From: Acidiphilium rubrum
GTDB lineage: Bacteria; Pseudomonadota; Alphaproteobacteria; Acetobacterales; Acetobacteraceae
Reading direction: 5' to 3'
Assembly: GCF_900156265.1 (NCBI RefSeq)
Contig: NZ_FTNE01000003.1
Span: 124,001-188,000 of the forward strand
Length of the DNA stretch: 64,000 nucleotides
Part shown: positions 26,900 through 54,983 of the stretch, in pieces
Layout of the letters: each line of letters opens with the position of its first letter
Numbering within the stretch: the stretch's first letter is position 1
Made by a program: the position numbers and the translations under genes
Notes under the pieces: model-generated
Databases searched by the model: none
What the model was told of the DNA's origin: nothing
The model's input: only the letters and a program-made list of their open reading frames with translations

Positions 26900-27571
26900 T
26901 CAACGCCGAAAAATCATCGCATCCGCATCAATCCGCCGCTCCCAGCCTTCGCGCTCCAGTTCCGGCGTCCGGTGCGCGTCCTGCGGATAGCCGATGCAGA
27001 GATACCCGATGAACTGCCAGCCCGCCGGCACATCGAGCGCCGCGGCGATCGCGCCGGGGTCAAGGATAGACACCCAGCCGAGCCCGATGCCCTCGGCCCG
27101 CGCCGCGAGCCAGAGCGTGTGGATCGCCATGACCACCGAATAGGCGATGGTCTCCTTCATGGTGCGCCGGCCCAGGCCGTGGCCGGTGGCGGGATCGGGT
27201 TCGGCGAACACGCCGATATGGCAGGGCGCGTCGTCGAGCCCGGCGAGTTTCAACCGCGCATACAGCGCCGCCCGCTCATCGTCATAGCCCAGCCGAGCGG
27301 CGTCGTTGCACGCAACGAAATTATCCCGCACCCGGCGCCGCCGCACCGGATCATCGACCAGCACGAACCGCCACGGCTGGCTGAACCCGACCGAGGGGGC
27401 CAGGCAGGCGATGGCGAGCAGCCGTTCGATGGTTCCGGGCGGCAACGCATCGCGCCGGAAATGCCGCACATCGCGCCGCAGGGTGAACAGCGCCTCGAGC
27501 GCTGCGGCAAACTCCGCCCCGAATTCCGCCGCGCAGCCAGCAGTGCCAAACTGGTCTATCATGTCGGCCAT
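26900..27571 (-). CDS. bluB: 5,6-dimethylbenzimidazole synthase
   Basis: A 223-aa flavin enzyme of the nitroreductase fold that fragments FMNH2 with O2 to make the lower ligand of cobalamin. BluB features are R-R-D-V-R-H-F-R, L-A-P-S-V-G-F-S-Q-P-W-R-F-V, the E-T-I-A-Y-S-V-V-M-A-I-H-T-L-W-L-A-A-R-A-E-G-I-G-L-G-W-V-S core and the C-terminal G-Y-P. The start codon at 27571 overlaps the divergent phosphatase start, an unusually tight arrangement. Synthesis of DMB here implies the cell makes true B12 in air. Confidence 0.92.
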   Translation of the reverse strand: MADMIDQFGTAGCAAEFGAEFAAALEALFTLRRDVRHFRRDALPPGTIERLLAIACLAPSVGFSQPWRFVLVDDPVRRRRVRDNFVACNDAARLGYDDERAALYARLKLAGLDDAPCHIGVFAEPDPATGHGLGRRTMKETIAYSVVMAIHTLWLAARAEGIGLGWVSILDPGAIAAALDVPAGWQFIGYLCIGYPQDAHRTPELEREGWERRIDADAMIFRR

Positions 27572-28139
27572 GGCTTCACCCCCCTGCCCGCTTGCGCTGA
27601 TCCGCCACCCGCAACCCGCCATCGCTGCCGGCCTTTGCTACGGCCGGCTGGATATCGGCCTGACCACAGCGGGCCATGCCGCCATCACCCCGATCATCGC
27701 ACAACTCGCGGGCCATCCGGCGAGCATCGTCCTGACCAGCCCAGCCCAGCGCTGCCGCATCCTGGCCGAGGCGCTGGGTGCGGCGCGCGGCATCCCGGTT
27801 GAGACCGACCCGCGCCTGCAAGAACTCGATTTCGGTGCTTGGGAAGGTGTGGCATGGAACGATGTGCCGCGCGCCGCCCTCGATGCCTGGGCGGCATCGC
27901 CCGAAACTTTCGCCCCGCCCGGTGGCGAGAGCGGTGCCGCGCTGCTCGCCAGGGTCACCGCCGCCTATCATGATTGCCTGATCCGGGCGCGCCCCGCCAT
28001 CATCGTCTCGCACGGCGGCCCGTTGCGGCTGCTGCTCGCGCTGGCGAACGGCACCAGGCCCGATCTGCTGACGCCCGCGCCGCCGCTGGGGTCGATCACC
28101 CTCATCGCAGACCCGGCCAGGTCGATGCCAGCAGGCTGA
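27570..28139 (+). CDS. Histidine phosphatase, probable alpha-ribazole phosphatase
   Basis: A 189-aa branch-1 histidine phosphatase, probably the alpha-ribazole-5'-phosphate phosphatase (called CobC in Salmonella). The catalytic His is H13 in L-I-R-H-P-Q-P, so the usual R-H-G is R-H-P. Next come G-L-C-Y-G-R-L-D-I-G-L-T, which is typical of CobC, L-Q-E-L-D-F-G-A-W-E-G and V-S-H-G-G-P-L-R. An ATG at 27561 would add three residues. It overlaps bluB at its start and cobS by 38 bases at its end, fully enclosed in the cob locus. Confidence 0.83.
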   Translation: MASPPCPLALIRHPQPAIAAGLCYGRLDIGLTTAGHAAITPIIAQLAGHPASIVLTSPAQRCRILAEALGAARGIPVETDPRLQELDFGAWEGVAWNDVPRAALDAWAASPETFAPPGGESGAALLARVTAAYHDCLIRARPAIIVSHGGPLRLLLALANGTRPDLLTPAPPLGSITLIADPARSMPAG

Positions 28140-28869
28140 GGACCAGAATTTCGGTGCCGATGTCGATCGCGCCGAGCGTATCCCCGGTATGCCCGCCGAG
28201 CCGCGCGGTGACATACCGCGCCCACAGCCGCGCTGCCGCACCGCTGAGCATCGCCGCCAGCACGGCGGCCCAGAACGGCACCAGCACCAGCGCCGCCACC
28301 ACCGCGATCGCTTCCGCCAGAAGCGCCGGTCCCGCCGGAATTACCCCCATGCTCGCCGCCAACCCATCGGGCCGGGCGAACGCGGTGCGCCGCTGCACCA
28401 CCACCATCGCCGCGCGGCCGAACGCGCCGGCCACCATCAGCGCCGCCATCACCCGCCAGGGTCCCGCGATGCTCCCAATCGCCGCCAGCCGCAGCGCGAC
28501 CGCCAGCACCAGCCCGATCGCGCCATAACTGCCGATCCGGCTGTCGCGCATGATCGCGAGCCGCCGCGCGATCGTGCCGCCGCCGCCCAGCCCATCCGCA
28601 CTATCGGCCAGCCCATCCTCATGCAGCCCGCCGGTCGCGAGCACGCTGACCACCAGCGCCCAACCGGCCGCGAGCCAGGGCACCATGCCGAGCCAGAGCG
28701 CCAGCGCATAAACCACCCCGGCGATGCCGCCCACCGCCAGCCCGACCACCGGATAGGCCCAGACGCTGGCGGCATAATCGACCATCGCGGGAGCCGGCAA
28801 CGCCGCACCCAGCGGCAGGCGGGTCAGCAGGCCGAACGCGGCGGCCATCTGGCAAGCGGCGGTGTTCAT
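28102..28869 (-). CDS. cobS: Adenosylcobinamide-GDP ribazoletransferase
   Basis: A 255-aa polytopic inner-membrane enzyme (CobS of Salmonella, CobV of Pseudomonas) joining adenosylcobinamide-GDP with alpha-ribazole. It has L-L-T-R-L-P-L near the start, G-G-L-H-E-D-G-L-A-D-S-A-D-G as the metal-binding signature, R-D-S-R-I-G-S-Y-G-A and G-G-H-T-G-D-T-L-G-A. Several hydrophobic helices are evident. The start overlaps cobT by ATGA. This is not the cobaltochelatase subunit of the same name. Confidence 0.94.
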   Translation of the reverse strand: MNTAACQMAAAFGLLTRLPLGAALPAPAMVDYAASVWAYPVVGLAVGGIAGVVYALALWLGMVPWLAAGWALVVSVLATGGLHEDGLADSADGLGGGGTIARRLAIMRDSRIGSYGAIGLVLAVALRLAAIGSIAGPWRVMAALMVAGAFGRAAMVVVQRRTAFARPDGLAASMGVIPAGPALLAEAIAVVAALVLVPFWAAVLAAMLSGAAARLWARYVTARLGGHTGDTLGAIDIGTEILVLSLLASTWPGLR

Positions 28870-29873
28870 GCCCGGTCCGTCACGCCCGCTTCGGCAAAAC
28901 TCGCCATGCCGGCGTGGCACGCCAGCGCCGCCCGCACCACCGGCACCGCCAGCGCCGCGCCCGAAGCCTCGCCCAGTCGCATCCCCAAATCGAGCAGCGG
29001 CACCATCCCCAGCGCTTCCACCAACCGCCGATGCCCGGCCTCGGCCGAGGCATGCGCGATCATCGCATGATCCAGCCCACCCGCCACCAGCCGCGCCAGC
29101 GGCGCCGCGGCGGCGGTGCACACGAATCCATCGAGCAACACCGGCACATGATGCACCCGCGCCGCGATCACCGCGCCCAGAATCGCCGCCAGTTCCCGCC
29201 CGCCCAGGCACGCAGCCGCCGCCAGCGGATCATCCAGCACGGCCCGATGCCGCGCCAACCCGCGATCGATCGCATCGCGCTTACGGCCAAGCCCGGCATC
29301 GTCGATGCCGGTGCCCCGCCCCGCCCAATCCGCCCCATCGCCGCCGAACAGCGCCGCCGCCAGCACCGCCGCCGCCGTGGTATTACCAATACCCATCTCA
29401 CCCAGGCACAGCAGATCGGCGCCGGGATCGACCGCGTCATACCCCGTCATCACCGCCGCCTCGAACGCGTCCGGCGTCATCGCCACATCGGTGGTGAAAT
29501 CGCCGGTCGGTGCCTCCAGCGACAGCGGAATCACCCGCAGCGCCGCCCCGGCCAGAAGCGCCAGTTGATTGATCGCCGCCCCGCCCGCCGCGAAATTCCC
29601 AACCATCTGCGCCGTCACCGCCGGCGGATAGGGCGAAACCCCCTGCGCCACCACGCCATGATTGCCCGCGAACACCAGCACCTCCACCAGGTCGAGCCGC
29701 GGCATCGCCCGCCCCTGCCAGGACGCCAGCCACGCCGCGATATCCTCCAGCCGCCCCAGGCTGCCCGGCGGCTTGGTCAGCGTCGCCTGGCGCGCCCGGA
29801 CGGCGGCGGCGGCGGCCTCATCGGCTGGCGGAAAATCCGCGCAACGGGCTCGAACGGCGGCAAAATCGGTCAT
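28866..29873 (-). CDS. cobT: Nicotinate-nucleotide-dimethylbenzimidazole phosphoribosyltransferase
   Basis: A 335-aa enzyme that makes alpha-ribazole phosphate from nicotinate mononucleotide and DMB. Visible blocks are K-P-P-G-S-L-G-R-L-E near residue 35, F-A-G-N-H-G-V-V-A-Q-G-V-S-P-Y-P, E-M-G-I-G-N-T-T-A-A-A and the C-terminal catalytic Glu in R-L-G-E-A-S-G-A-A-L-A. It overlaps cobB upstream and cobS downstream by ATGA. BluB in the same locus supplies its base substrate. Confidence 0.95.
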   Translation of the reverse strand: MTDFAAVRARCADFPPADEAAAAAVRARQATLTKPPGSLGRLEDIAAWLASWQGRAMPRLDLVEVLVFAGNHGVVAQGVSPYPPAVTAQMVGNFAAGGAAINQLALLAGAALRVIPLSLEAPTGDFTTDVAMTPDAFEAAVMTGYDAVDPGADLLCLGEMGIGNTTAAAVLAAALFGGDGADWAGRGTGIDDAGLGRKRDAIDRGLARHRAVLDDPLAAAACLGGRELAAILGAVIAARVHHVPVLLDGFVCTAAAAPLARLVAGGLDHAMIAHASAEAGHRRLVEALGMVPLLDLGMRLGEASGAALAVPVVRAALACHAGMASFAEAGVTDRA

Positions 29874-31210
29874 GGCGATCCTCGGTCAACGGAAGCGATC
29901 AGATGAAAAAAAGTGCCGGACACGCGCCCCCGCCGCCCGCCCTCCGGCCCGCGCGCGGCACCCAGCGCATCGTGCATCATGGCGAACGGCGCATCGTCGC
30001 CCGGCGCGGTCACGCTGGCATAATGAAACTCATGGCCCCGCACCACCGCCCCGGCCGCGCCCAACGGCCCATCGGCACACAAAACCGCCTCGCGATAGCC
30101 CAGATGCAGCCGGCGCCGCGCGAAACTCGTCTCATGGCCGAGCAGCCCGGTCATCGCATGGCGCACGCCATCCGCATCCTCCAGCGCCACCCCCAGCACC
30201 ATGAACCCGCCGCACTCGCCATGCACCGGCCATCGCGCCGCGAAATCGCGCAACCCGGCCTGAAACCGCCCGGCCGCGGCCAGTGCCGGCGCGTGCAATT
30301 CCGGATACCCGCCGGGCAGCCAGCACGCATCGCACCCATCGGGCGGCGCCTCATCCGCCAGCGGCGAAAACGCCACGATCTCAGCCCCCGCCGCGCGCCA
30401 CCCCGCCACCACATGCGGATACATGAAACTGAACGCCGCATCATCGGCCAGCGCAATCCGCTGCCCCGGCGGCGGCACCGCCGCAGCACTTACCCCGCCA
30501 CCATCCTCGATCACCCCAGCCGCCGCCAGCAACCCATCGATATCGCATTCCCGCTCGGCCCGTTCGCCCAACCCCGCGCAATAGCCCGCCAGCCCATCCT
30601 GCTCGCGCGCCTGCACCAGGCCCAGGTGCCGCTCCGCCAAACTCAACGCCGGATCGCGCGGAATGCTGCCGAACACCGCAACCCCGGCCCGCGCCATCGC
30701 CGCCACAATCCCGTCGCGATGCCGCGCGCTACCCACCCGGTTCAACACCGCCCCCGCCACGCGCACCGCCGGATCGAACCCGGCAAACCCCACCGCGACC
30801 GCCGCCGCCGATTGCGACTGGCCCGAAACATCGAGCACCAGCACCACCGGCAGCCCGAACCGCGCCGCGATATCCGCCGCCGCCCCCCGCCGCAGCGCCG
30901 CCTCGCCCACCCCGTCGAACAACCCCATCGAGGCCTCGATCAGCAGCACATCGGCATCCCGCGCCTGCGCCACCAGAATCGCCCCCAGCAAATCCGGCGT
31001 CATCGCCCAACTGTCCAAATTAACTCCGGGATGCCCCGAAGCCGCCTGATGAAACGCCGGATCGATATAATCCGGCCCCGATTTCGCACAGCGCACCTTG
31101 AGCCCGCGCCGCCGCAGCGCTGCGGCCAGCGCCAGCGTCACCATCGTCTTGCCGCTGCCCGAACGCGGCGCCGCAATCACCAACGCCCGCGTTTTTGAGG
31201 CAAGCGTCAT
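29870..31210 (-). CDS. cobB: Cobyrinate (hydrogenobyrinate) a,c-diamide synthase
   Basis: A 446-aa glutamine-dependent amidase that amidates the a and c side chains. The N-terminal synthetase domain has a P-loop-like A-A-P-R-S-G-S-G-K-T and K-S-G-P-D-Y-I-D-P-A-F-H. The C-terminal glutaminase-like domain has the Cys in H-G-E-C-G-G-F-M-V-L-G and a late G-H-E-F-H-Y-A. In an aerobic pathway it acts on hydrogenobyrinic acid before cobalt insertion by CobN. The start is the Met preceding T-L-A-S-K-T, overlapping the cobA stop. Confidence 0.95.
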   Translation of the reverse strand: MTLASKTRALVIAAPRSGSGKTMVTLALAAALRRRGLKVRCAKSGPDYIDPAFHQAASGHPGVNLDSWAMTPDLLGAILVAQARDADVLLIEASMGLFDGVGEAALRRGAAADIAARFGLPVVLVLDVSGQSQSAAAVAVGFAGFDPAVRVAGAVLNRVGSARHRDGIVAAMARAGVAVFGSIPRDPALSLAERHLGLVQAREQDGLAGYCAGLGERAERECDIDGLLAAAGVIEDGGGVSAAAVPPPGQRIALADDAAFSFMYPHVVAGWRAAGAEIVAFSPLADEAPPDGCDACWLPGGYPELHAPALAAAGRFQAGLRDFAARWPVHGECGGFMVLGVALEDADGVRHAMTGLLGHETSFARRRLHLGYREAVLCADGPLGAAGAVVRGHEFHYASVTAPGDDAPFAMMHDALGAARGPEGGRRGRVSGTFFHLIASVDRGSP

Positions 31211-32010
31211 CGCGCCATCGCCTCCAACGCCGGCAACAATTCCAGCAGCCGCGCCCGCGACGCCACCACCTGCCCGATCACAATGATCGCCGGCGCCGCA
31301 ATCCCCTCGATCGTCACGCGCTCGGCAAGCTGCGCCAGATCCGTCACCAGAATCCGCTGCTCCGCCAGCGTCGCCGAGGCGATCGCCGCCGCCGGCGTCG
31401 CCCCGTTCAACCCGCCCGCCATCAGCGCCGCCGTGATCGAGGCCAGATTGGTCATCGCCATATACAGCACGATCGGCTGATCGAGCCGCGCCAGCGCCGC
31501 CCAATCCATCCCGTCCGCCCGGTCGGCACCATGCCCGGTCGCCAGCACCACCGCCTGATTGACCCCGCGCAACGTCAAGGGAATCAACGACGCAGCCATG
31601 CTCGCCAACCCCGAAGTGAGGCCCGGCACAATCCGAAACCGCACCCCCTGCGCCGCCAGCGTAAACGCCTCCTCGCCGCCCCGCCCGAACATGAACGGAT
31701 CGCCGCCCTTCAGCCGCAACACCCGCCGCCCCGCCCGCGCCAGCGCAATCAACTGCGCCGTGATATCCGCCTGCACCGCCGATGGCTTGCCGCCCCGTTT
31801 GCCCGCCGGAATCAACTCGGCCCCCGCCCGCGCCAACCCCAGCACGCGCGGATCGATCAACGCATCATGCACCACCGCATCCGCCTGCCCGAGCCCCGAT
31901 AGCGTCAGCAACGTCAGATGCGCCGGATCACCCGGCCCGGCACCGGCCAGCCAGACCTCGCCCGGGTTCAGGCGTGGCAGATCGGTCATTATCCGGTCCA
32001 GGCTGGTCAT
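31207..32010 (-). CDS. cobA: Uroporphyrinogen-III C-methyltransferase
   Basis: A 267-aa SAM-dependent enzyme that methylates C2 and C7 to give precorrin-2, the entry step to cobalamin and sirohaem. The start V-W-L-A-G-A-G-P-G-D-P-A-H-L-T, the R-L-K-G-G-D-P-F-M-F-G-R-G-G-E-E block and P-G-L-T-S-G are diagnostic. No fused CysG dehydrogenase domain is present, so it is the stand-alone SUMT. It starts a four-gene run cobA-cobB-cobT-cobS joined by ATGA overlaps. Confidence 0.95.
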   Translation of the reverse strand: MTSLDRIMTDLPRLNPGEVWLAGAGPGDPAHLTLLTLSGLGQADAVVHDALIDPRVLGLARAGAELIPAGKRGGKPSAVQADITAQLIALARAGRRVLRLKGGDPFMFGRGGEEAFTLAAQGVRFRIVPGLTSGLASMAASLIPLTLRGVNQAVVLATGHGADRADGMDWAALARLDQPIVLYMAMTNLASITAALMAGGLNGATPAAAIASATLAEQRILVTDLAQLAERVTIEGIAAPAIIVIGQVVASRARLLELLPALEAMAR

Positions 32011-32162: not shown

Positions 32163-33284
32163 GTGACGAACCGGACGCCGCTCCGCCGTGGCTGGACCAC
32201 GGGCGCCTGTGCGACCGCCGCGGCCAAATCCGCCTGCGCGGCGCTGCTCACCGGCGCCTTCCCCGATCCCGTCACCATCACCCTGCCCAACGGTGCCACC
32301 ACCAGCTTCACCCTCGCGGAGGCCGCCCGCACCGCAACCACCGCGACCGCCGCCATCGTGAAAGACGCCGGTGACGATCCGGATGTCACCCACGGCGCCC
32401 TGGTCCGCGCCACCATCAGCGCTGCCACGCCCGGCGCAGGCATCATCTTCCGCGCCGGCGAAGGCGTCGGCACCATCACCCGCCCCGGCCTGCCCATCCC
32501 GCCCGGCGAACCCGCCATCAACCCCACCCCGCGCGCCATGATCCGCCAGGCGCTCACCGAAATCGCCGGCCCCAACCCCGATTTCATCGTCGAAATCGCC
32601 ATCCCCGGCGGTGCCACCCTCGCCGAACACACGCTCAACGCCCGCCTCGGCATCGTCGGCGGCCTCTCGATTCTCGGCACCACCGGTATCGTCATCCCGT
32701 TCTCCTGCGCCGCCTGGATCGACAGTATCCACCGCGGCATCGATGTCGCGCGCGCCTCCGGCATCACCCACATCGCCGGTGCCACGGGCCGCACCTCCGA
32801 ACGCGCCGTCCAAGCCCTGCACCATCTCGAAGACACCGCCCTGATCGAAATGGGCGATTTCGCCGGCGGCCTGCTGAAATACCTCCGCCGCAACCCGATC
32901 CCCCGCCTCACCATCGCCGGCGGCGTCGCCAAAATCACCAAACTCGCCCAAGGCAGGCTCGATCTCCATTCCAGCCGCAACGCGGTCGACCGCACCGCCC
33001 TCGCGTCGCTCGCCCACACCAGCGGCGCGCCCGCCGCCTTCACCGCCACCATCCTTGCCGCCAACACCACCGCCGAAATCTTCGATCACGCCACCGCCAC
33101 CGGCCTCAACCTCGGCGATACCGTCGCCCGAGCCGCCTGGCACACCGCCGCCGCCGTGCTCGCCCCCGCCGCGATCGATCTCGAAATCATCCTGTTCGAC
33201 CGCACCGGCGCCATCGCCGGTCGCGCCGGATTCGCGCCGGTTCACGAGTTATCCCCCGCCGATGAGCGAAACCGCCGGTCATAA
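32163..33284 (+). CDS. cbiD: Cobalt-precorrin-5B C1-methyltransferase type (CbiD)
   Basis: A 373-aa CbiD, which adds the C1 methyl group in the anaerobic pathway. The signature [16 protein letters not shown] lies at the N-terminus, with [21 protein letters not shown] and [10 protein letters not shown] downstream. I chose the GTG at 32163; a TTG at 32094 would add 23 residues of no family resemblance. It occurs among oxygen-dependent cob genes with no cobF in the window, so it probably does the CobF methylation here. The end overlaps cobM by 43 bases, convergently. Confidence 0.92.
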
Positions 33285-34012
33285 GCCGCATCATACAAGG
33301 CACTCTCCCGCGCCGCACCACCCGCCAGACCCGGCCCCACCAATATCACTGCCGTCCGCTCGACCTTATCACCCGCCAGCACCGCCTCGATCGTGCCCAA
33401 ATTCGCCCGCACGATCCGCTGATCCGGCCAACTCGCCCGCGCCACCACCGCGACCGGACAATCCACCCCGTAAAACGGCACCAGCCGCGCCACCACCGCC
33501 CCAATCGCATGGATCGCCAGATGCACCGCGAGCATCGCCCCGGTCCGCGCAAACCCTTCGAGCGTCTCACCCGCCGGCATCGCCGAAGCCCGCCCGGAAA
33601 TCCGCGTGATCACCAGACTCTGCGCAATCTCCGGCAAGGTCAGCTCCTGCCCCAGCGCCGCCGCCGCCGCCGCAAACGCCGGCACCCCCGGTGTCATCGT
33701 GTAGTCGATGCCCAGCCGCTCCAGCCGCCTGATCTGCTCCGCCACCGCCGAATACAGCGACAAATCCCCCGAATGCAGCCGCGCCACATCCAGCCCCGCC
33801 GCCGCCGCCGCCGCAAACTCCGCCTCGATCTGATCAAGGCTCATGGGCGCGGTATCGACAATCCGCGCCCCCTCCGGGCAATGCGCCAGCATCGCGCGCG
33901 GAATCAACGAGCCCGCGAACAAACACACGCGGCACCGCGCCAGAATATCGCGCCCGCGCAACGTCAATAAATCCGCCGCCCCCGGCCCCGCGCCGATGAA
34001 ATGCACCGTCAC
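33242..34012 (-). CDS. cobM: Precorrin-4 C11-methyltransferase
   Basis: A 256-aa SAM-dependent tetrapyrrole methylase. The start [20 protein letters not shown], the C-L-F-A-G-S-L-I-P segment and [11 protein letters not shown] are the CobM/CbiF pattern. The start codon is GTG and overlaps the cobE stop (GTGA). It forms a three-gene minus-strand unit cobL-cobE-cobM. Confidence 0.95.
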
Positions 34013-34383
34013 GACGCCTCACCCCGCGCCAACGCGCACGTCGCCCCATCGCCTGCAATCCGCGCCAGCACCAGCCGGCCCTGCGCCCCCGCCACCGCCA
34101 ACGCGCATCCTTCCGCGACCGATGCCACACCCACCGCCGCCGCCACCCGCGCCGATCGCGTCACGCACCGCGCCTGCGCCAAATCCAGCGCATCGGGCTC
34201 GACCCAGACCATCGCCACATCCAACAATCGCGCCGCCGCCGCCACGCCCGCCTCATCCATCTTGAACCGCGGCGCCGCCAGCACATCCACCCGGCACCCG
34301 GCCAACCCCGCCGCCCGCGCCACCAGCGCCACGATACCAGCCGCATCGCACCCCGCCCGGCAGCCGATCCCCGCCACGATCAC
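34009..34383 (-). CDS. cobE: CobE / CbiG C-terminal-domain protein
   Basis: A 124-aa protein matching CobE, the stand-alone equivalent of the CbiG C-terminal domain. It begins [12 protein letters not shown] and contains [11 protein letters not shown] and S-V-A-E-G-C-A-L. CobE is needed for aerobic cobalamin synthesis but its exact reaction is unsettled. The start is the GTG overlapping the cobL stop; the longer frame upstream is a shadow of cobL. Together with CbiD it may replace the deacylating and methylating CobF step (inference). Confidence 0.85.
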
Positions 34384-35585
34384 GGCTTCACCCCGCGCCA
34401 CTGCGTCACCGTCATCGCCGGGCGAAACCCGTGCAGCCCGCCCACCGGATCGAGCCGATCGATCGATAACCGCGTCAACGCCCCGCCATACTCCCGATGC
34501 GCCGCGAACAGCACGGCCTCGGTCTCGATCGTCACCGCATTCACCACCAGCCGCCCGCCCGCCCGCAGCGCCGCCCAGCACTGGCCGATCAACCCATCCA
34601 ACCGCGCCCCACCGCCGATGAACACCGCATCCGGCGCAGGCCACAAATCATCGATATCGTCAGGCGCCGCCCCCTGCCGCACCTCGAACCGCGGCACCCC
34701 CAGCGTCAGCGCATTATCCCGCGCCCGCGCCGCCCGCACCGCATCCCGCTCCAGCCCGATCGCCCGATTGGCCGGATGCGCGAGCAACCACTCGATCGCG
34801 ACCGAGCCCGACCCGCAGCCGATATCCCACAGCAAATCCCCCGGCACCGGCGCCAGCGCCGCCAGCGTCGCCGCCCTGATCTCGGATTTGGTGATCTGCC
34901 CGTCATGCGCGAACCACCCATCCGCCAGCCCGGCCACGCGCGGCATCCCCGCAGCACCCGCCACCTCGATCGCCAGCAAATTCAGCGGCCCCACATCATC
35001 CGGCATCCGATCCGCCGCCACCACCCGATGCCGCTCGCAAGGACCGCCCAGCGCCTCCAGCACATGCACGCGCGATGCCCCAAATCCCCGCGCCAACAGC
35101 ACCGCGGCAACATCGCCCGGCGTCGTCGCATCGGCGGACAGCACCAACAGCCGCGCCCCGTCATGCAGATGCGGAATCACCCGCGCCACCGGCAGGCCGC
35201 AGCACGAAATCACCGGCGTATCCTGCAACGCCCAGCCCAGCCGCGCCGCTGCCAGCGACACGCAGGACGCGACCGGCAGGCACACAAACTCCCCCCGCGC
35301 GACATGCGCCGCCAACACCGACCCCACCCCATGAAAAAACGGATCACCCGAAGCCAGCACCACCACCGGTTGCCCCCGCCGCGAAAAAATCGCCGGAAAC
35401 GCCTGATCCATCGGCCGCGGCCAGACCATGACCTCGCCCGTGATCAACCCCGCCGCCAGCCGCAAATGCCGCGCACCGCCCACCACCAGCGCCGCCCGCC
35501 CGATCAAGCCGCGCGCCGCCCCCGACAACCCATCGACACCATCCTCCCCGATCCCCAGAATGCTCAGCCATGGAACCAAGCTCAT
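34380..35585 (-). CDS. cobL: Precorrin-6Y C5,15-methyltransferase (decarboxylating), CbiE-CbiT fusion
   Basis: A 401-aa bifunctional enzyme that methylates C5 and C15 and removes the C12 acetate carboxyl. The N-terminal CbiE-type methylase covers about residues 1-205 (L-A-S-G-D-P-F-F-H-G-V-G). The C-terminal CbiT-type Rossmann domain starts near 230, with the SAM site D-I-G-C-G-S-G-S at 254-261. The fused form is the usual aerobic one. Its start overlaps the divergent cobK start by 16 bases, so promoters must lie inside the coding regions. Confidence 0.95.
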   Translation of the reverse strand: MSLVPWLSILGIGEDGVDGLSGAARGLIGRAALVVGGARHLRLAAGLITGEVMVWPRPMDQAFPAIFSRRGQPVVVLASGDPFFHGVGSVLAAHVARGEFVCLPVASCVSLAAARLGWALQDTPVISCCGLPVARVIPHLHDGARLLVLSADATTPGDVAAVLLARGFGASRVHVLEALGGPCERHRVVAADRMPDDVGPLNLLAIEVAGAAGMPRVAGLADGWFAHDGQITKSEIRAATLAALAPVPGDLLWDIGCGSGSVAIEWLLAHPANRAIGLERDAVRAARARDNALTLGVPRFEVRQGAAPDDIDDLWPAPDAVFIGGGARLDGLIGQCWAALRAGGRLVVNAVTIETEAVLFAAHREYGGALTRLSIDRLDPVGGLHGFRPAMTVTQWRGVKP

Positions 35586-36412
35586 CGCTGCCCCTGCGCA
35601 CCCTCATTCTCGGCGGCACCACCGAAGCCACAAATATCGCCCGCGCGCTCGCGCACGAACCCACGATCGCCGCCACATTGTCGCTGGCCGGCCGCACCGC
35701 CGCGCCAATCCTGCCGCCCATCCCCCATCGCATCGGCGGCTTCGGCGGCATCGCCGGTCTGGTCGCCTACCTCCGCACCACCGAAACCGCAGCGATCATC
35801 GACGCGACCCACCCCTTCGCCGCCCAAATCAGCGACCACGCCTGCCAGGCCGCCGCCCTTACCGCCACACCAATCCTGCGGATCGACCGCCCCGCGTGGC
35901 GCGCCGAACCAGGCGACCAATGGACGCACGTCACCACCATGACCCAGGCGGCCGATGCGCTCGGCCCCATGCCGCGCCGCGTCTTCCTCACCATCGGCCA
36001 GCAAGACCTCGCGCCGTTCCGCGCCGCCCCCTGGCACGACTACATCATCCGCAGCGTCGATCCGCCCGCCGCCGCACTGTGCCCGCCAAACGCCGAACTC
36101 ATCACCGCCCGCGGCCCGTTCACCGTGGCGGGGGAAACCGCCCTGCTGCAAACCCACCGGATCGACATCATCGTGACAAAAAACGCCGGCGCCGCCGCAA
36201 CGTCGGCCAAACTCACCGCCGCCCGCACCCTCGGCATCCCGATCATCATGATCGCCCGGCCAAGCCTGCCACCCTGCCCGACCGTGCCCGACGCCGATGG
36301 CGCGCTGGACTGGCTGAAACGCGAAGTCAGCACGGCGCGCCAGGCGAGCATCGCAGTAAAACGAAGTGAGAAGACTTCTTTTTTTGAAAAAAAAGAAGCA
36401 AAAAAACTTTGA
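35570..36412 (+). CDS. cobK: Precorrin-6A reductase
   Basis: A 280-aa NADPH-dependent reductase of precorrin-6A. It has the nucleotide-binding L-I-L-G-G-T-T-E-A at the start, D-A-T-H-P-F-A-A-Q-I-S near 78-88 and the late T-K-N-A-G-A-A-A-T-S-A-K-L. The last roughly 13 codons (S-F-F-E-K-K-E-A-K-K-L) are read from a T-tract palindrome repeat rather than from cobK sequence, so the C-terminus has been extended by repeat insertion. It overlaps the cobL start divergently. Confidence 0.93.
   Translation: MEPSSSLPLRTLILGGTTEATNIARALAHEPTIAATLSLAGRTAAPILPPIPHRIGGFGGIAGLVAYLRTTETAAIIDATHPFAAQISDHACQAAALTATPILRIDRPAWRAEPGDQWTHVTTMTQAADALGPMPRRVFLTIGQQDLAPFRAAPWHDYIIRSVDPPAAALCPPNAELITARGPFTVAGETALLQTHRIDIIVTKNAGAAATSAKLTAARTLGIPIIMIARPSLPPCPTVPDADGALDWLKREVSTARQASIAVKRSEKTSFFEKKEAKKL
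36375..36410 (+). repeat. T-tract palindrome repeat, copy 4 (inside cobK 3' end)
   Basis: CTTCT7-G-A8-GAAG followed by C-A7-C-T3. It lies within the coding end of cobK and supplies its last codons; the stop TGA comes two bases after the repeat. Copy 5 lies about 50 bases away in inverted orientation. Confidence 0.8.
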
Positions 36413-36513: not shown

Positions 36514-37272
36514 TCACCCCACCCCCCGCGGCGTATAAACCCACGGCGTCCCCGCCTCGCGCGCCACCATCCGTGTCGCCGCACTGCCCACCAGCACCAG
36601 CGTCCGCATATCCGCCAGTGCCGGGTCCGCCGCATCCAACCGCACCACCGTTACCGCCTCATCCGCGCGGCTCACGGCGGTCGCGAAAATCACCGGCACC
36701 GATCCGGGCAGCACGCCGCGCAGCACCTCGAAACACCGCCCGATCTGCCACGGCCGCGCCCGCGACGCCGGATTATACAGCGCGAGCACGAACCCCGCGC
36801 CCGCCGCCGCAACCAACCGCTGCTCGACCAGGTCCCACGGTTTCAGATTATCCGAGAGCGAGATCGCACAAAAATCATGCCCCAGCGGCGCGCCCACCCG
36901 TGCCGCCACCGCCAGCAGCGCCGAAATCCCCGGCACCACGCTCACATCCAACGCCCGCCAGGTCGCCTCGCCATGATCGATCGCCTCGAACACCGCGCTC
37001 GCCATCGCGAACACCCCGGCATCACCGGATGACACGACCACCACCACCCGCCCCGCCGCCGCCAGCGTCAGCGCATGGCGCGCCCGGTCCAGTTCCACCC
37101 GATTATCGGTCGGGTGCTGCACCACGCCCGGCCGCGCCGGCACCCGCGCCAGGTACGGCCCATACCCGATCAGATCGGTCGCCGCCGCCAGCGCCGCCGC
37201 CGCCTGCGGCGTCTGCATCGCCGGATCGCCCGGCCCCAACCCGACCACGATCAACCGCCCCGCCCCGCTCAT
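36514..37272 (-). CDS. cobJ: Precorrin-3B C17-methyltransferase
   Basis: A 252-aa SAM-dependent methylase that contracts the ring while methylating C17. Motifs are V-V-G-L-G-P-G-D-P, D-L-I-G-Y-G-P-Y, V-S-S-G-D-A-G-V-F-A-M-A and L-A-L-Y-N-P-A-S. It is the last gene of the riboswitch-headed operon and overlaps cobI by ATGA. Confidence 0.95.
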   Translation of the reverse strand: MSGAGRLIVVGLGPGDPAMQTPQAAAALAAATDLIGYGPYLARVPARPGVVQHPTDNRVELDRARHALTLAAAGRVVVVVSSGDAGVFAMASAVFEAIDHGEATWRALDVSVVPGISALLAVAARVGAPLGHDFCAISLSDNLKPWDLVEQRLVAAAGAGFVLALYNPASRARPWQIGRCFEVLRGVLPGSVPVIFATAVSRADEAVTVVRLDAADPALADMRTLVLVGSAATRMVAREAGTPWVYTPRGVG

Positions 37273-37994
37273 CGAACGCCCTGCCGGCCGGGCACCAGGA
37301 TCATCGAAAAATACGGCGCGGTCGGCGTCACCAGGTCCCGCAGCGGCACGATCCGCTCCCCGCTCATCGTGCCCCGCTCGACATACACGGCCCGATCGAT
37401 CAGGCTGGCAAGCTCCAGCGCGCGGCGGATCTTCTCCAGATTTCGCCCCACTTTCATGATCACCGCCGCGTGCGCGCCCGAAAGCCGCGCGACCAGATCG
37501 GCCTCGTCCAGCGTGCCCGGCAGAATGCTCAGCACGTCATCGCCATGCACCATCGGCAGCCCGGCACGGCTCCAACACCCGCTCATCCCCGCCACCCCCG
37601 GCACCGTCTCGCTCCGATAGGCGCGCGCCAGCCGATCGAACAAATACATCGCCGAGCCATAGAAAAACGGATCGCCCTCGCACAGCAGCGCAACATCGTC
37701 GCCACCATCCAGCGCCGCCGCCACGGCCTCAGCGGATTTGCCGTAAAAACAATCCATTGCAACCCGATACTGCGGATCATCATGCCCGATTTCGGTGGTA
37801 TACGGATATTCGAACCGCAACTCCGCAGCCCCCGCCCCGATCAGCGACGCCGCGATGCTGCGCGCATGGCCAACCCGCCCACGCTTGGCGAAAAACGCCA
37901 CCACCGGCACCCCAGCCAGAATCCGCGCCGCCTTCAGCGTCACCAACTCCGGATCACCCGGCCCCATCCCGATCGTATAGAGCGTGCCGGTCAT
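37269..37994 (-). CDS. cobI: Precorrin-2 C20-methyltransferase
   Basis: A 241-aa SAM-dependent methylase. It has L-Y-T-I-G-M-G-P-G-D-P-E-L-V-T-L-K-A, V-V-A-F-F-A-K-R-G-R-V-G-H-A-R, L-L-C-E-G-D-P-F-F-Y-G-S and the P-G-V-A-G-M-S-G-C-W turn of CobI/CbiL. It overlaps cobH and cobJ by ATGA. Confidence 0.95.
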   Translation of the reverse strand: MTGTLYTIGMGPGDPELVTLKAARILAGVPVVAFFAKRGRVGHARSIAASLIGAGAAELRFEYPYTTEIGHDDPQYRVAMDCFYGKSAEAVAAALDGGDDVALLCEGDPFFYGSAMYLFDRLARAYRSETVPGVAGMSGCWSRAGLPMVHGDDVLSILPGTLDEADLVARLSGAHAAVIMKVGRNLEKIRRALELASLIDRAVYVERGTMSGERIVPLRDLVTPTAPYFSMILVPGRQGVR

Positions 37995-44146: not shown

Positions 44147-44529
44147 TCCGCAGCCTCCCGCATCCCCGACTCGATCGACGGCACCCGGCCCACGATCATA
44201 TCCTTCAACGAAGCCGCCCGGCGCGACGGCATGATCGTCCCGCTGCCCGACGCCACATAAGACCGCGCATAATCCATCAGATCGCCCGCCATCTCCGGCC
44301 GCAACCCGCCCAACAGATAACTCCATTTCCCCGGCATCGAAATCGCCGCCGAACACCCAAGCGCACACATCGCCAGGCACTCGACCCCGCGCAGCACAAC
44401 CGGCGCCCCATCGGCGCACCCCTCGAGCGCGGCATACAAATCCGCCCCCATCGGCACCCCACCAGGCTCCAACGGCAAACCAGCCCGGCACGTGATACAA
44501 ACATGCAAATGCGCAACCGCGTCAGTCAT
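44143..44529 (-). CDS. DUF1636 protein, ferredoxin-like, first gene of the B12-riboswitch operon
   Basis: A 128-aa protein of the DUF1636 family. Five cysteines (C11, C14, C51, C55, C59) form C-I-T-C and C-L-A-M-C-A-L-G-C, resembling thioredoxin-like [2Fe-2S] ferredoxins or a metal-binding site. DUF1636 genes are often next to cobW, which suggests electron supply or cobalt handling for the pathway, but no function is proven. The start is the Met at 44529; the riboswitch ends about 165 bases upstream. Confidence 0.82.
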   Translation of the reverse strand: MTDAVAHLHVCITCRAGLPLEPGGVPMGADLYAALEGCADGAPVVLRGVECLAMCALGCSAAISMPGKWSYLLGGLRPEMAGDLMDYARSYVASGSGTIMPSRRAASLKDMIVGRVPSIESGMREAAE

Positions 44530-44695
44530 CGAACCCCCGGACGGAACCCTCCGCCATGCAACAGGCAACGATCACTGAGCGTCCCGGCCCGCCAAAACGG
44601 CAAACCGAAAGACGACGTTTTCACGCGTCGCTGTCATCAGGACACCCCGCCCGAGACACGTTCAGCCCAACCAGGCAACACGCCCAGCCGCAGAT

Positions 44696-44868
44696 GGCAG
44701 GTCTCCTGGCTCACAGCGCCGGGGATCGATCCCCATGGTTCCCATCGCCTTCCCGGAAAACACCCAGTGGCAAAATGACGAAAACCGCGCCGCTTACAGT
44801 TGCGGGGGCAGCCGTGGCCTTACACCACGTTCCCTATTCACCTCCCTCGCGGGAGGACCATCACACCC
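44696..44868 (-). promoter_or_regulatory. Cobalamin riboswitch
   Basis: Read on the minus strand, the element contains GAATAGGGAAC, then GGCTGCCCCCGCAACTGTAA, then GCCACTGGG, then CGGGAAGGCG and finally the B12 box AGCCAGGAGACCTGCC. These are the conserved cobalamin-riboswitch core blocks in the right order. It lies about 165 bases upstream of DUF1636-cobW-cobN-cobG-cobH-cobI-cobJ and should repress them when adenosylcobalamin is plentiful. It is the only copy I find in the window. Confidence 0.95.
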
Positions 44869-44928
44869 CATCCATACAAGCCCCGCACAACGCATGTCAA
44901 AACGATCGCGAGCAAGGCAAGGCAAGGC

Positions 44929-48362: not shown

Positions 48363-48395
48363 CCCGGCCAACCACCACCCAGTCCCAATCCCCCA

Positions 48396-50272: not shown

Positions 50273-50866
50273 ATGCCCACCTCGGAACGATACCGTAACA
50301 AACAAGGCTTCCAGCCACGCCCCCCTTGCGCTACGCCATCCAAAACCGCGCAAGGAACCGCACCCATTCCCACCACCCTCATCCTCGGCGGCGCCCGCTC
50401 CGGCAAAAGCCGCCACGCCGAAACCCTGCTCGCCGCCCACCAACCCCCCTGGCACTACCTCGCCACCGCCCAGGCGTTCGATGCCGAAATGCGCGAGCGT
50501 ATCGCCCTCCACCAGGCCCGCCGCGACCACAACTGGCACACCACCGAAGCCCCGCTCGACCTGATCACCCCGCTCGAAGCCGCCGGCCCTACCCCGGTCC
50601 TGATCGATTGCCTCACAATCTGGCTCACCAACCTCCTCCTGGCCGAGGCCGATCTCACCGCCGAATCCGCCCGCCTCGCCGCCGCTTTATCCACCCGCAC
50701 CGCCCCCACCATCCTGGTCGCCAGCGAAGTCGGCCTCGGCATCGTGCCCGAAAACGCCCTCGCCCGCCGCTTCCGCGATGCCGCCGGCCTGCTCCATCAA
50801 CGCATCGCCGCCGGCGCCGACCACGTCATATTCATGGTCGCCGGCCTGCCCCTGACCGTGAAATGA
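50273..50866 (+). CDS. cobU: Adenosylcobinamide kinase / adenosylcobinamide-phosphate guanylyltransferase
   Basis: A bifunctional enzyme (CobU, called CobP in Pseudomonas) that phosphorylates adenosylcobinamide and adds GMP. The P-loop is L-I-L-G-G-A-R-S-G-K-S-R-H-A-E; V-L-I-D-C-L-T-I-W-L-T-N-L and S-E-V-G-L-G-I-V-P-E are the family blocks. The first 30 or so residues before the P-loop are atypical, so the true start may be a rare codon downstream of 50273. cobO begins 8 bases after its stop. Confidence 0.93.
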   Translation: MPTSERYRNKQGFQPRPPCATPSKTAQGTAPIPTTLILGGARSGKSRHAETLLAAHQPPWHYLATAQAFDAEMRERIALHQARRDHNWHTTEAPLDLITPLEAAGPTPVLIDCLTIWLTNLLLAEADLTAESARLAAALSTRTAPTILVASEVGLGIVPENALARRFRDAAGLLHQRIAAGADHVIFMVAGLPLTVK

Positions 50867-50873
50867 GACGCCA

Positions 50874-51476
50874 ATGAGCGAAGACGAAACCCGCCACCGC
50901 GCCAAAATGGCAAAACGCAAAGCCCTCCAGGATGCCGAGGTCGCAGCCAAAACCATCGAAAAAGGCCTGCTGATCGTCAACACCGGCCCCGGCAAGGGCA
51001 AATCCACCGCCGCCTTCGGCCTCGCGCTCCGCATGATCGGCTACGGACGAAAGGTCGCCATCGTCCAATTCATCAAGGGCGCCTGGGCCACCGGCGAGCG
51101 CACCGCCCTCGCCCGGTTCGACGATCTGGTGACGTTCCACACCATGGGCGAGGGCTTCACCTGGGAAACCCAGGACAAATCGCGCGACATCGCCGCCAGC
51201 CAGCGCGCCTGGGCCACCGCCGCAACCCTCCTGGCCGACCCCGAAATCGCCCTGGTCATTCTCGATGAACTCAACATCGCACTCCGCTACGACTATCTCC
51301 CGCTCGACCCCATCCTGGCCGCCATCGCCGCCCGCCCGCACCCGATGCACGTCGTCATCACCGGCCGCAACGCCAAACCGGCCCTGATCGCAGCCGCCGA
51401 TCTGGTCACCGAAATGTCCGCCACCAAACATCATTTCGCCGCCGGGGTGAAAGCCCAGCAGGGCATCGAGTTCTGA
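50874..51476 (+). CDS. cobO: Cob(I)yrinate a,c-diamide adenosyltransferase
   Basis: A 200-aa CobA/CobO/BtuR-type ATP:corrinoid adenosyltransferase that attaches the upper ligand. The Walker A motif is [10 protein letters not shown] near residue 40; further blocks are Q-F-I-K-G-A-W and [11 protein letters not shown]. Its last base is shared with the cobQ start codon region. Reduction of Co(II) to Co(I) must come from a reductase encoded elsewhere. Confidence 0.95.
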
Positions 51477-52936
51477 TGGCGCGCGCCCTGATGTTCCAAG
51501 GCACCGGCTCCAGCGTCGGCAAATCCACCATCGTCGCCGGCCTCGCCCGTGCGCTGACCAATCGCGGCCTGCGCGTCCTGCCGTTCAAACCCCAGAACAT
51601 GTCGAACAACGCGGCCGTCACCCCGGAGGGCGGTGAAATCGGCCGCGCCCAGGCGCTCCAGGCCCGCGCCTGCCGCGTTCCCCCCAGCGTCCACATGAAC
51701 CCGATCCTGCTGAAACCCCAAAGCGAAACCGGCAGCCAGATCATCGTGCAAGGCCGCATCTTCGGCACCGCCAAGGCGCGCGACTACCAGGCGCTGAAAC
51801 CGCAATTGATGCCCCACGTGCTCGAAAGCTTCGCCCATCTGCAATCAAGCGCGGATCTCATCCTGATCGAAGGCGCCGGCAGTGCGTCGGAAATCAACCT
51901 CCGCGCCAACGACATCGCCAACATGGGCTTCGCCCGCGCGACCGACAGCCCGGTCATCCTGATCGGTGATATCGATCGCGGCGGCGTCATCGCGAGCCTG
52001 GTCGGCACCAGAACCGTGCTCGATCCGGCGGACGCCGCGCTGATCGCCGGCTTCATCGTCAACAAAATGCGCGGCGACCCCACCCTGTTCGCCGACGGCA
52101 TGGCCGCGATCGCCCGCCACACGCCCTGGCGCCCGCTCGGCCTCGTCCCGCATTTCGAAAGGGTCAAAAACCTCCCCGCCGAGGACGCGGCAGACCTCGC
52201 CGCCAACGCACCCCACCGCACCGGCGCCACCCTGGTCATCGCCGTGCCGATGCTGCCCTGCATCGCCAATTTCGACGATCTCGATCCGCTGCACGGCGAA
52301 CCCGATGTCGATCTGCGCTTCATTCCGCGCGGCACGCCGCTGCCGCGCGAGGCCGATCTGATCATCCTGCCCGGCTCCAAAGCCACCATCGCCGATCTCG
52401 CAACCCTGCGCGCCGAGGGCTGGGACATCGACATCCGCGCCCACCACCGCCACGGCGGCGCGCTGCTCGGCCTGTGCGGCGGCTATCAGATGCTCGGCCG
52501 CAGCATCGCCGACCCCCACGGCATCGAGGGTCCGCCCGGCAGCGCCCCCGGCCTCGGCCTGCTCGATATCGAAACCATCCTCGCCGGCGACAAACGCCTC
52601 ACCGCGGCCACCGGCCGCCTCGTCCCCGAATCCGCCGGTTTCAGCGGTTTCGAAATGCACATCGGCCAAACCACCGGCCCTGCCACCGCGCGCCCGCTGC
52701 TCCACCTCGCCGATGGCCGGCCGGATGGCGCGCAATCACCCGATGGCCGGATCGCCGGCACGTATATCCACGGCATATTCACCGCCGATCCCGCCCGCGC
52801 TGGCCTGCTCCGCCGCTACGGCGCCACCCCCGCGCGGCGCAATTTCGAAGCCGAGATCGACACGACGCTCGACGCCCTGGCCGCCCATCTCGAAACCCAT
52901 ATCGATATCGACGCCTTGCTCACGCTGGCCCGATGA
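51476..52936 (+). CDS. cobQ: Cobyric acid synthase
   Basis: A 486-aa glutamine-dependent amidase that amidates the b, d, e and g side chains. The N-terminal P-loop is G-T-G-S-S-V-G-K-S (residues 9-17), with [10 protein letters not shown]. The glutaminase-like half has C334 in [11 protein letters not shown] and a C-terminal Y-I-H-G-I-F. It overlaps cobO at its start and the convergent cobD by 17 bases at its end. Confidence 0.96.
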
Positions 52937-53897
52937 TCACCGCCAGCAGCCACACGACCCCGATCTGCAACCACGCCGCAACCCGCACCAGCCGCAACGC
53001 GCGCTCGATATCCGCAACCCCCGCCGCCGCCCGCCCCGCGCCCATCCAGGCATCATCGACGCGGACGGCCCCATAAACCCGCGGCCCCGCCAGCCGCAGC
53101 CCGAGCGCCCCGGCCATCGCCGCTTCCGGCCAGCCCGCGTTCGGCGAGCGATGCTGGCCCGCATCCCGCCGCACCGAAACCATCGCCCCGCGCGCGCTCG
53201 CCCCCGGCACAACCGCCGCCGCCAGCACGAGCCACAGCGCCGCCAGCCGCGACGCCGGCAGGTTGATCACATCGTCGAACCGCGCCGCAGCCCAGCCGAA
53301 CGCGCCATGCCGCGCCGTCAAATGCCCGATCATGCTGTCCGCCGTGTTGACCACCTTATAGAGTGCGATCCCCGGCAACCCGAGCACCGCGCACCACAGC
53401 GCCGGCGCCACCACGCCATCGGAAAAATTCTCCGCCAGACTCTCGATCGCCGCCCGCGCCACCCCCGCCGCATCGAGGCTCGCAGGATCGCGCCCGACGA
53501 TATGCGACACCGCGACCCGCCCTTCCGCCAGCCCGGCGCGCAACCCCACTGCCACCGCCCGCACATGGGTGATCAGACTAACCGATGCCAGCAACGCGCT
53601 CGCCAGCACCCCAATCACCACAATCGCCACCGCACGCGGCACCAGCGCGCACACCGACGCCTCGATCAGCCAGCACGGCACCCACGCCGCCAGAGCCAGC
53701 ACGACCAGCGCCGCCACCCCCAGCCAGCGCCGCCGCCGATCGCCACCCCGGTTCAGCCCCGCATCGAGCCGCGCGATCAGCGCCCCCGCCCACATCACGG
53801 GATGGCGGATCAACCGAAATATCGTATCGGGATAGCCGATGATGGCCTCGATCGTGAGCGCCAGGGCAGCGATCGGAACCGTGAGCATCAAATCCAT
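52920..53897 (-). CDS. cobD: Adenosylcobinamide-phosphate synthase (CbiB/CobD)
   Basis: A 325-aa integral-membrane enzyme joining aminopropanol phosphate to adenosylcobyric acid. It has the N-terminal G-Y-P-D...H-P-V-M-W, then [41 protein letters not shown] and a C-terminal helix. Several hydrophobic segments are present. The start is the Met at 53897; the open frame beyond it is the shadow of the divergent cobC. Confidence 0.94.
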
Positions 53898-53936
53898 GGC
53901 ATGCAGACCAGCAGTTTCATCGGCGCCGTCGATATC

Positions 53937-54983
53937 ATGAGCACGCAAACGGCAACAGAACGCCCCATCCTGCACGGCGGCCGGCGCGAAGCGATGCGCG
54001 AGGCCTACCCCGCCGCGCCGCAACCCTGGATCGACCTGTCCACCGGCATCAACCCGATCCCCTACCCGATCCCAACCCTGCCGGCCGAATGCTTCACCCG
54101 CCTGCCCGACCCCGAGGCCGCCACGCGCCTCGAATCCATCGCCGCCGCCGCCTACCACGTGTCCGACGCCGCGATGGTCGCCGCGGCACCGGGCACGCAA
54201 ATCCTGATCGAACTGCTCGCCCGCCTGCTGCCCCAGCAGCGCATCGCCATCCTCGGCCCGACCTACGCCGAACATCAGGCAGCCTGGGCGCGCGGCGGCG
54301 GCAGCGTCGATCTGATCCCCGATCTCGACGATCTGCCCGCAGCGTCATCGCTGGTTCTCTGCAACCCGAACAACCCGGATGGCCGGATCATCCCGCCCGC
54401 CCGGCTCCGCGCCCTGGCCGATCATCTCGCCGCCCGCGGCGGCCTGCTGGTGATCGACGAAGCCTTCGCCGATCTCGCGGACCGCGCCACCAGCATGGCG
54501 GCAACCCTGCCGCACCCCGCCATCGTCATCCTGCGCTCGTTCGGCAAAACCTACGGGCTGGCCGGCGTCAGGCTCGGCTTCGCCCTGGCCGATGCCCCGC
54601 GCGCCGCCGCCATCCGCACCGCCCTCGGCCCCTGGGCGGTCTCCGGCCCGGCGATCGCGATCGGCACGATCGCCCTCGCCGATCCCGCCTGGCTGGCCGC
54701 AACCCAGCATCGCCTGACCCACGCGGCCGCCACGCTCGACCGGCTTCTGACCGATGCCGGCATGACCATCATCGGCGGCACGCCGCTCTACCGCCTCGCC
54801 GCCACCGCGACCGCGCCCGATTGGCACGATCGCCTCGCCCGCGCCGGCATCATGACGCGCCGGTTCGACGACCATCCCTCCTGGTTGCGATTCGGGCTTC
54901 CCGCCGACCACACCGCCTGGGCGCGCCTCGCCGCCGCCTTGTCGGGCAATCGCCCGCCCCTGGCCAACCACCCCGATCAATGA
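53937..54983 (+). CDS. cobC: Threonine-phosphate decarboxylase
   Basis: A 348-aa PLP enzyme of the histidinol-phosphate aminotransferase fold that makes (R)-1-amino-2-propanol phosphate for the nucleotide loop. It has H-G-G-R-R near the start, D-L-S-T-G-I-N-P, C-N-P-N-N-P-D-G and the PLP lysine in R-S-F-G-K-T-Y-G-L-A-G-V-R-L-G. An ATG at 53901 would add 12 residues. It is divergent from cobD, which uses its product. In Pseudomonas nomenclature this is CobC, in Salmonella CobD. Confidence 0.92.
   Translation: MSTQTATERPILHGGRREAMREAYPAAPQPWIDLSTGINPIPYPIPTLPAECFTRLPDPEAATRLESIAAAAYHVSDAAMVAAAPGTQILIELLARLLPQQRIAILGPTYAEHQAAWARGGGSVDLIPDLDDLPAASSLVLCNPNNPDGRIIPPARLRALADHLAARGGLLVIDEAFADLADRATSMAATLPHPAIVILRSFGKTYGLAGVRLGFALADAPRAAAIRTALGPWAVSGPAIAIGTIALADPAWLAATQHRLTHAAATLDRLLTDAGMTIIGGTPLYRLAATATAPDWHDRLARAGIMTRRFDDHPSWLRFGLPADHTAWARLAAALSGNRPPLANHPDQ

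Follow-up and report, generated by a model that had tools for sequence, protein, structure and literature searches.

Among the described routes to cobalamin, the closest to the system considered here are the aerobic pathway of 'Pseudomonas denitrificans', the alphaproteobacterial loci in which CobG is combined with CbiD and CobE, and the anaerobic pathway that uses CbiG and CbiD. The system itself is encoded by Acidiphilium rubrum (Alphaproteobacteria; family Acetobacteraceae), in a cobalamin block that runs from bluB to cobC at 26900-54983 of a 64,000-nucleotide stretch of contig NZ_FTNE01000003.1 (assembly GCF_900156265.1, positions 124,001 to 188,000), the whole of which is called the window below. 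With the aerobic pathway, as described in the available parts of PMC7242693 and PMC5282855, the window has in common CobA, CobI, CobG, CobJ, CobM, CobK, CobL, CobH, CobB, CobN, CobO, CobQ, CobC, CobD, CobP, CobU, CobV, CobW and CobE; it differs in that CobF is absent and the cluster contains CbiD. Based on its family, its gene slot and its exchange with CobF across genomes, CbiD is very probably the C1-methyltransferase of this O2-dependent locus, standing in CobF's place (a probability of about 0.87).

The same gene set as in the window is found in CobG-CbiD-CobE loci of Gluconobacter, Komagataeibacter, Microvirga, Rhizobium, Agrobacterium and Mesorhizobium (30 of the 80 named loci listed), and these alphaproteobacterial loci and the window share the order cobN-G-H-I-J-K-L-E-M-cbiD-(cobA)-cobB, with cbiD and cobK reversed; the window's cluster differs in being interrupted, by a glycosyltransferase 61 (GT61) gene and an MmeI-like one. 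CobG-CbiD loci in which CbiG_N is fused to CobJ (L199, L201, L203, L205 and L206, for example) likewise have CobG, CbiD and CobE, whereas the window has no CbiG_N. The anaerobic CbiG-CbiD pathway shares CbiD and, in the form of CobE, the CbiG C-terminal domain, but the window is without CbiG_N and has CobG and CobN. Replacements of this kind were reportedly remarked on already in the 2003 comparative work of Rodionov and colleagues. A 2015 paper writes '(CobF or CbiD)' in its aerobic set, together with CobG and CobNST (available part of PMC4403557); of that rule the window has CobG, CobN and the '(CobF or CbiD)' part, and a full CbiG, which the rule also lists, was not found in the genome. CobF is kept as an aerobic marker in the accessible portions of PMC6593275, PMC4303638 and PMC8269236.

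For P. denitrificans, CbiD is given as present and CobF as absent in the accessible text of PMC11596459, and cobGHIJ and cobLFK are printed for strain ATCC 13867 (PMC3668002). The order cobJ-I-H-G / cobL-cbiD-cobK is found in five of the five loci L199, L201, L203, L205 and L206, with cbiD standing where PMC3668002 prints 'F'. An Escherichia coli strain makes B12 from ATCC 13867 genes (available part of PMC5282855), and if the 'cobF' of ATCC 13867 were CbiD, as this gene order may suggest, that strain would show that a CbiD-type set works. A literature search, with subscription papers mostly outside its coverage and some papers available only in part, found no experiment on CbiD with a metal-free substrate, though such work may exist.

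CbiD, CobE and CobG in the Acidiphilium rubrum genome

The cbiD gene (32163..33284, + strand) encodes a full-length protein that scores well above the curated cut-off (TIGR00312, 398 bits against 200; PF01888, 298 bits) and has 1SR8 as its structure relative. Its open reading frame (ORF) spans 32094-33284, and, judging by where relatives begin, GTG at 32163 is the likelier start, not TTG at 32094. The earlier note had taken CbiD to be the C1-methylation enzyme, and in the genome searched (3.98 Mb, 78 contigs, completeness rated 100 %) it is indeed the sole candidate found for that step. The absence of CobF, also claimed from the window, was borne out by a whole-genome search with TIGR02434, in which the best match reached 36 bits, at CobI's place, against a cut-off of 195.8, and in which matches at E <= 10 fall on CobI, CobJ, CobA and one protein on contig C51. 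An N-terminal CbiG domain (CbiG_N, PF11760) had no match genome-wide at E 0.001. The single CbiG_C domain in the genome is CobE, which agrees with its description as a relative of the CbiG C-terminal domain: it is a stand-alone PF01890 domain (74 bits) without CbiG_N, with PDB chains 3BY5 and 2W6K as relatives, and is encoded at 34009..34392 (- strand; ORF open to 34644, the start being a probable one).

That cobF lies in an assembly gap, with CbiD a passenger, is scarcely credible, although the genome is in 78 contigs: its completeness is rated 100 %, both same-family genomes in the sample have CbiD (2/2) and neither has CobF (0/2), and the complete genomes of Mesorhizobium sp. L-8-3 (L177) and Streptomyces buecherae (L190) have CbiD and no full-scoring CobF.

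The O2-dependent precorrin-3B synthase gene, cobG (38617..39783, - strand), sits between cobH and cobN; on TIGR02435 its product reaches 194 bits, short of the curated 234.8 cut-off. That cut-off is unreliable, since NirA-like proteins without cob neighbours pass it and several CobG of cob loci (those of the window, G168 and G158) fail it; sulfite and nitrite reductases also match the model, and true CobG was sorted by position in the TIGR02435 model together with cob context. The window CobG has CX5C and CX3C cysteines, which we take to be a sulfite-reductase-type Fe-S site. Matches in G056 and G105, and one copy each in G066 and G070, were considered as CobG and dropped as NirA-like by context, and G056 and G105 were counted in the anaerobic group after this sorting. 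Together with CobG, the presence in the locus of the cobaltochelatase subunit CobN (39732..43100, - strand; TIGR02257 1115 bits, NF008973 1463 bits; ORF open to 43211), a marker of late cobalt insertion, upholds the assignment of an aerobic-type pathway. Its chelatase partners CobS and CobT (or ChlI/D) did not turn up among the scanned proteins of the window.

Distribution of CbiD and CobF

The distribution was assessed in a class sample of 172 genomes, the same set for all profiles, and in a phylum sample of 279 genomes that overlaps it. Within the class sample, CbiD occurs in 47 genomes, CobF in 8, CbiG_C in 54 and CbiG_N in 35. True CobG is present in 21 of these genomes, 13 of them with CbiD (G000, G007, G015, G026, G037, G040, G051, G070, G110, G157, G158, G164 and G165, with CobG cut by a contig end in G070 and G157) and eight with CobF (G022, G042, G065, G066, G093, G154, G168 and G169); none has both and none was seen with neither. 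The phylum sample has the same exchange of CbiD and CobF, with CobF in 38 genomes, CbiD in 74, and CobG and CbiD together in 16. By these counts and by the '(CobF or CbiD)' already in print, the configuration is commoner and better known than the earlier note implied, and CbiD for CobF is an ordinary, known variant of aerobic loci. CbiD-type aerobes, which include many Alphaproteobacteria and some Streptomyces, would be judged incomplete by pathway tools that insist on CobF.

The 80 named CbiD loci, taken with flanks of at most 10 kb to the left and right, shorter in some cases, were found through CbiD and are hence uninformative on its frequency. Of the at least 80 listed, 38 carry cobG; in 30 of these cobE is next to it, in seven there is no cobE nearby and in one there is CbiG_N only; cobF was seen in 0 of 80 within those flanks. 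When 20 genomes were probed whole for CobE and CobF (the control, G066, gave both), CobE without a full-scoring CobF genome-wide was found in Mesorhizobium sp. L-8-3, Agrobacterium tumefaciens CNPSo 675, Gluconobacter cerinus and Streptomyces buecherae, among others.

The N-terminal domain of CbiG is present in 33 of the 34 class genomes that have CbiD without true CobG (the miss is G048), as against 2 of the 13 with CobG and CbiD, namely G037 and G165, both with the domain fused to CobJ. These counts bear on the proposal that the locus runs anaerobic, CbiG-like lactone chemistry despite CobG. CbiD and a CbiG C-terminal domain are indeed both present, but with no CbiG_N in the genome, with CobG and CobN in the locus, and with CbiG_N so distributed, that proposal is highly improbable.

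Gene slots and phylogeny

Where a CbiD locus has the genes concerned, cbiD mostly lies between cobM and cobA or cobB, often on the strand opposite cobM. Loci of some CobF genomes have the corresponding arrangement with the slot empty: L106 and L108 have the order cobL-cobE-cobM-cobA-cobB with no cbiD there, and the CobF genomes G065 and G066 have the order of the CbiD loci minus cbiD, with cobF elsewhere in each case; cobF follows cobA in G022, G042, G154 and G169. A CobL tree was built for 70 loci, of which 48 are labelled CbiD and 14 CobF (62 in all). The state changes at least seven times on it, the direction of the changes being unreadable since the named loci were found through CbiD; 31 named rows were labelled CbiD by locus, with genome-wide CobF absence checked for four (L130, L140, L160 and L177). 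The CobL nearest to that of the window is from Pseudoroseomonas coralli, at 60 %.

The CbiD tree has 137 rows, 22 of which have too little context to label, with three more uncertain. Within it the window CbiD falls in a 56-row clade (SH-like 99) comprising 44 CobG loci, 12 unlabelled rows and no anaerobic ones, and groups with Acetobacteraceae, Acidisoma and a Rhodospirillales metagenome-assembled genome (MAG). The CobG loci outside this clade are those of Actinobacteria, those of the CbiG_N-CobJ type, and G026/G158 and G015/G051. From these groupings, CbiD looks like an old, stable part of aerobic loci and not a recent oddity. Diagnostic residues of aerobic CbiD were sought and not found: although 81 columns of the 137-row alignment are >=97 % conserved, no column separates aerobic from anaerobic CbiD, as expected from one methylation chemistry.

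Loss of the two-carbon fragment

Methylation by CbiD follows the expulsion of two carbons by CbiG in the anaerobic pathway (available part of PMC7242693). By analogy with CbiG and CbiD, deacylation and methylation, which are joined in CobF, would here be split between proteins: a separate protein would remove the extruded C20 acetyl group before the C1 methylation, and CbiD, replacing CobF, would methylate C1 of a metal-free, precorrin-5-level intermediate. CobE is the obvious candidate for the acetyl-removing protein because it is the C-terminal domain of CbiG, and it is our leading one, tentatively and at somewhat less than even odds; the comparative data alone are unable to settle who removes the two-carbon fragment. 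This division of the two activities would make the loss of that fragment from metal-free precorrin-5 testable with two proteins, CbiD and CobE. The earlier note had held that CbiD plus CobE, or another protein, must handle this loss, and one part of that stands, in that the step has no assigned enzyme here, CobF and CbiG_N both being absent. The part that cast CobE as CbiD's specific partner is not supported in that form, for CobE also occurs in 38 of 39 genomes that have CobG and CobF only (34/35 in the phylum sample, one of them in two pieces, and 4/4 more in the class sample); with CobE equally frequent beside CobF, finding it in a genome does not by itself mark it as the partner of CbiD.

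That count is one of several observations that weigh against CbiD replacing CobF with CobE as its deacylase. Exclusion is not absolute, CbiD and a full-score CobF occurring together in G222, G290 and G305 of the phylum sample and in two Streptomyces genomes (of L183 and L188), with CobF lying elsewhere than cbiD in each. In favour of CobE, it is present in 22 of 22 near-complete CobG-CbiD genomes (11 of the class and 11 more of the phylum; 3/22 also have CobF), a count that excludes G007, with CobE, and G157, without it, both 7 % contaminated. Also in its favour, cobE lies in its usual slot between cobL and cobM in 41 loci holding cbiD and cobG (among which L095 and L152, identical in CbiD and CobL, are probably one locus). 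On the other side, CobE was not found in that slot or genome-wide in two drafts with CbiD and CobG, G157 and the genome of L140, in which cobM and cobL are adjacent with no room for cobE (L100, from G157, 3846-5794; L140, 1266-2024). As drafts (G157 being 95 % complete and 7 % contaminated, the L140 genome a MAG), they serve as a warning, not as proof. The genome of L185, also a MAG with CbiD and CobG, has CbiG_N and no CobE. Pseudomonas aeruginosa presumably uses CbiD. Its cobE was essential in one of four tested conditions (accessible part of PMC9732424). Against CobE as specifically the partner of CbiD, a review tabulates the formation of hydrogenobyrinic acid by an in vitro enzyme mixture and by an E. 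coli strain, one of each, that included CobF but not CobE (available part of PMC5282855).

Two rival accounts compete with CobE as deacylase on this sub-step alone. CbiD may do both, driving acetyl loss from precorrin-5 and methylating C1 as CobF does, with CobE assisting by binding, handing over or protecting intermediates. The abundance of CobE in CobF-only genomes, by which it would not be a CbiD-specific deacylase, agrees with this, as do the two CbiD-CobG assemblies without CobE. So does the slot cobM-cbiD-cobA, where no additional gene of the cob families was seen to go with cbiD, genes outside the profiles used not having been searched. Those assemblies are, however, drafts, and no residue sets aerobic CbiD apart from the anaerobic enzyme, which acts after CbiG's removal of the fragment (PMC7242693, in the part available), so that a dual role for CbiD is conceivable but rather unlikely. 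It is also unlikely that the acetyl group is lost spontaneously, or through an enzyme outside the locus, with CbiD methylating the product and CobE having an unrelated role. No candidate protein for this was found in the loci examined, using cob-family profiles only; in its favour, CobE occurs whichever of CbiD and CobF a genome has, and a few genomes of either kind lack it: with CbiD, G157 and that of L140; with CobG and CobF, G255 (seven contigs, rated 100 % complete; no CbiG_C/CobE match, but CbiG_N beside cobJ). Returning to CobE as the deacylase, a broader form of that reading, which we consider decidedly doubtful, would give CobE, in the assembly of metal-free corrins, a general role as C1-deacetylase (or hydrolase helper) alongside either methyltransferase, a split that would have let CbiD and CobF swap at least seven times. 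Were this true, deacylation by CobF alone would be a back-up and not the usual cellular route.

Two further ideas about CobE were tried and given up. A lack of CobE in CbiD-type Actinobacteria was hinted at by the DNA around cbiD, where none is seen (L175, L182, L183, L188, L190 and L197), yet outside the cob cluster all eight actinobacterial CbiD genomes (8/8) have a match to the CobE domain, with or without CbiG_N, the weakest of 31.8 bits. A decayed CobE active site in CobF genomes, hinted at by 7 of 10 sequences, mostly failed when 46 CbiD-type and 38 CobF-type CobE were compared. Both glycines of the GxG are present in 46/46 versus 38/38, Glu in 46/46 versus 37/38, Thr in 42/46 versus 35/38 and Lys in 33/46 versus 30/38. 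A Cys after GxG is commoner in the CbiD type (29/46 versus 11/38; Fisher p 0.002, uncorrected for kinship) but can hardly be catalytic because it is missing in 17 of the 46. The cobL and cobE domains of L134 lie in one open frame (11877-13517), a possible fusion.

Organization of the locus

Family scores that mostly run to hundreds of bits, and a gene order that recurs in other genomes, show that the locus is not a chance assembly of matches. The genes that the earlier note named lie where it placed them, and family profile scores confirm them. The order is bluB, cobV, cobU, cobB, cobA, cbiD, cobM, cobE, cobL, cobK, cobJ, cobI, cobH, cobG, cobN, cobW and, past two interrupting genes, cobP, cobO, cobQ, cobD and cobC, in a window whose G+C content is 65.5 %.

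On the - strand, bluB (5,6-dimethylbenzimidazole synthase, 26900..27622; TIGR02476 253 bits, cut-off 150) is followed by cobV (CobS-type cobalamin 5'-phosphate synthase, 28102..28851; PF02654 150 bits; ORF open to 29211, the probable start being placed from the domain), cobU (CobT-type NaMN:DMB phosphoribosyltransferase, 28866..29873; TIGR03160 364 bits), cobB (hydrogenobyrinic acid a,c-diamide synthase, 29870..31189; NF002204 487 bits; ORF open to 31504, again with a probable start) and cobA (uroporphyrinogen-III C-methyltransferase, 31207..32010; TIGR01469 252 bits). Beyond cbiD, cobM (precorrin-4 C11-methyltransferase, 33242..34012; TIGR01465 295 bits) and cobE are on the - strand, as is cobL (a CbiE-CbiT fusion, precorrin-6B C5,15-methyltransferase, 34380..35585; TIGR02467 132 bits, TIGR02469 107 bits). 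Like cbiD, cobK (precorrin-6A reductase, 35570..36412; NF005968 326 bits, PF02571 237 bits) is on the + strand, opposite to the adjoining genes.

The - strand then carries cobJ (precorrin-3B C17-methyltransferase, without CbiG_N fusion, 36514..37272; TIGR01466 271 bits), cobI (precorrin-2 C20-methyltransferase, 37269..37994; TIGR01467 211 bits), cobH (precorrin-8X methylmutase, 37991..38620; NF006136 339 bits), cobG, cobN and cobW (43103..44143; TIGR02475 516 bits; ORF open to 44500). A DUF1636 protein (44143..44568, - strand; PF07845 74 bits) lies between cobW and a cobalamin riboswitch (44679..44877, - strand; RF00174 118 bits), which stands ahead of DUF1636-cobW-cobN-cobGHIJ.

Between the riboswitch and cobP the cob cluster is interrupted at 45075-50032 by the two genes mentioned above, the MmeI-like restriction-modification gene (45075-48362, + strand; PF20464, PF20465 and PF20473) and the GT61 gene (48869-50032, - strand). 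The block then resumes with cobP (CobU family kinase/guanylyltransferase, 50273..50866, + strand; PF02283 199 bits), cobO (cob(I)yrinic acid a,c-diamide adenosyltransferase, 50874..51476, + strand; TIGR00708 222 bits), cobQ (cobyric acid synthase, 51476..52936, + strand; TIGR00313 419 bits), cobD (CbiB, 52920..53888, - strand; TIGR00380 182 bits; ORF open to 54275) and cobC (threonine-phosphate decarboxylase type, 53973..54983, + strand; TIGR01140 336 bits; ORF open from 52713).

A gene for a SOUL heme-binding protein (26209-26880, - strand) adjoins bluB. A short hairpin-like repeat, CTTCTTTTTT..AAAAAAGAAGCAAAAAAC, has seven copies in the window, at 2461, 4547, 32056, 36387, 36462, 44939 and 58207, with 0 occurrences in 100 shuffles; four of the copies are inside the cob block: in the cobA/cbiD gap, where cobK and cobJ end, and immediately upstream of the riboswitch.

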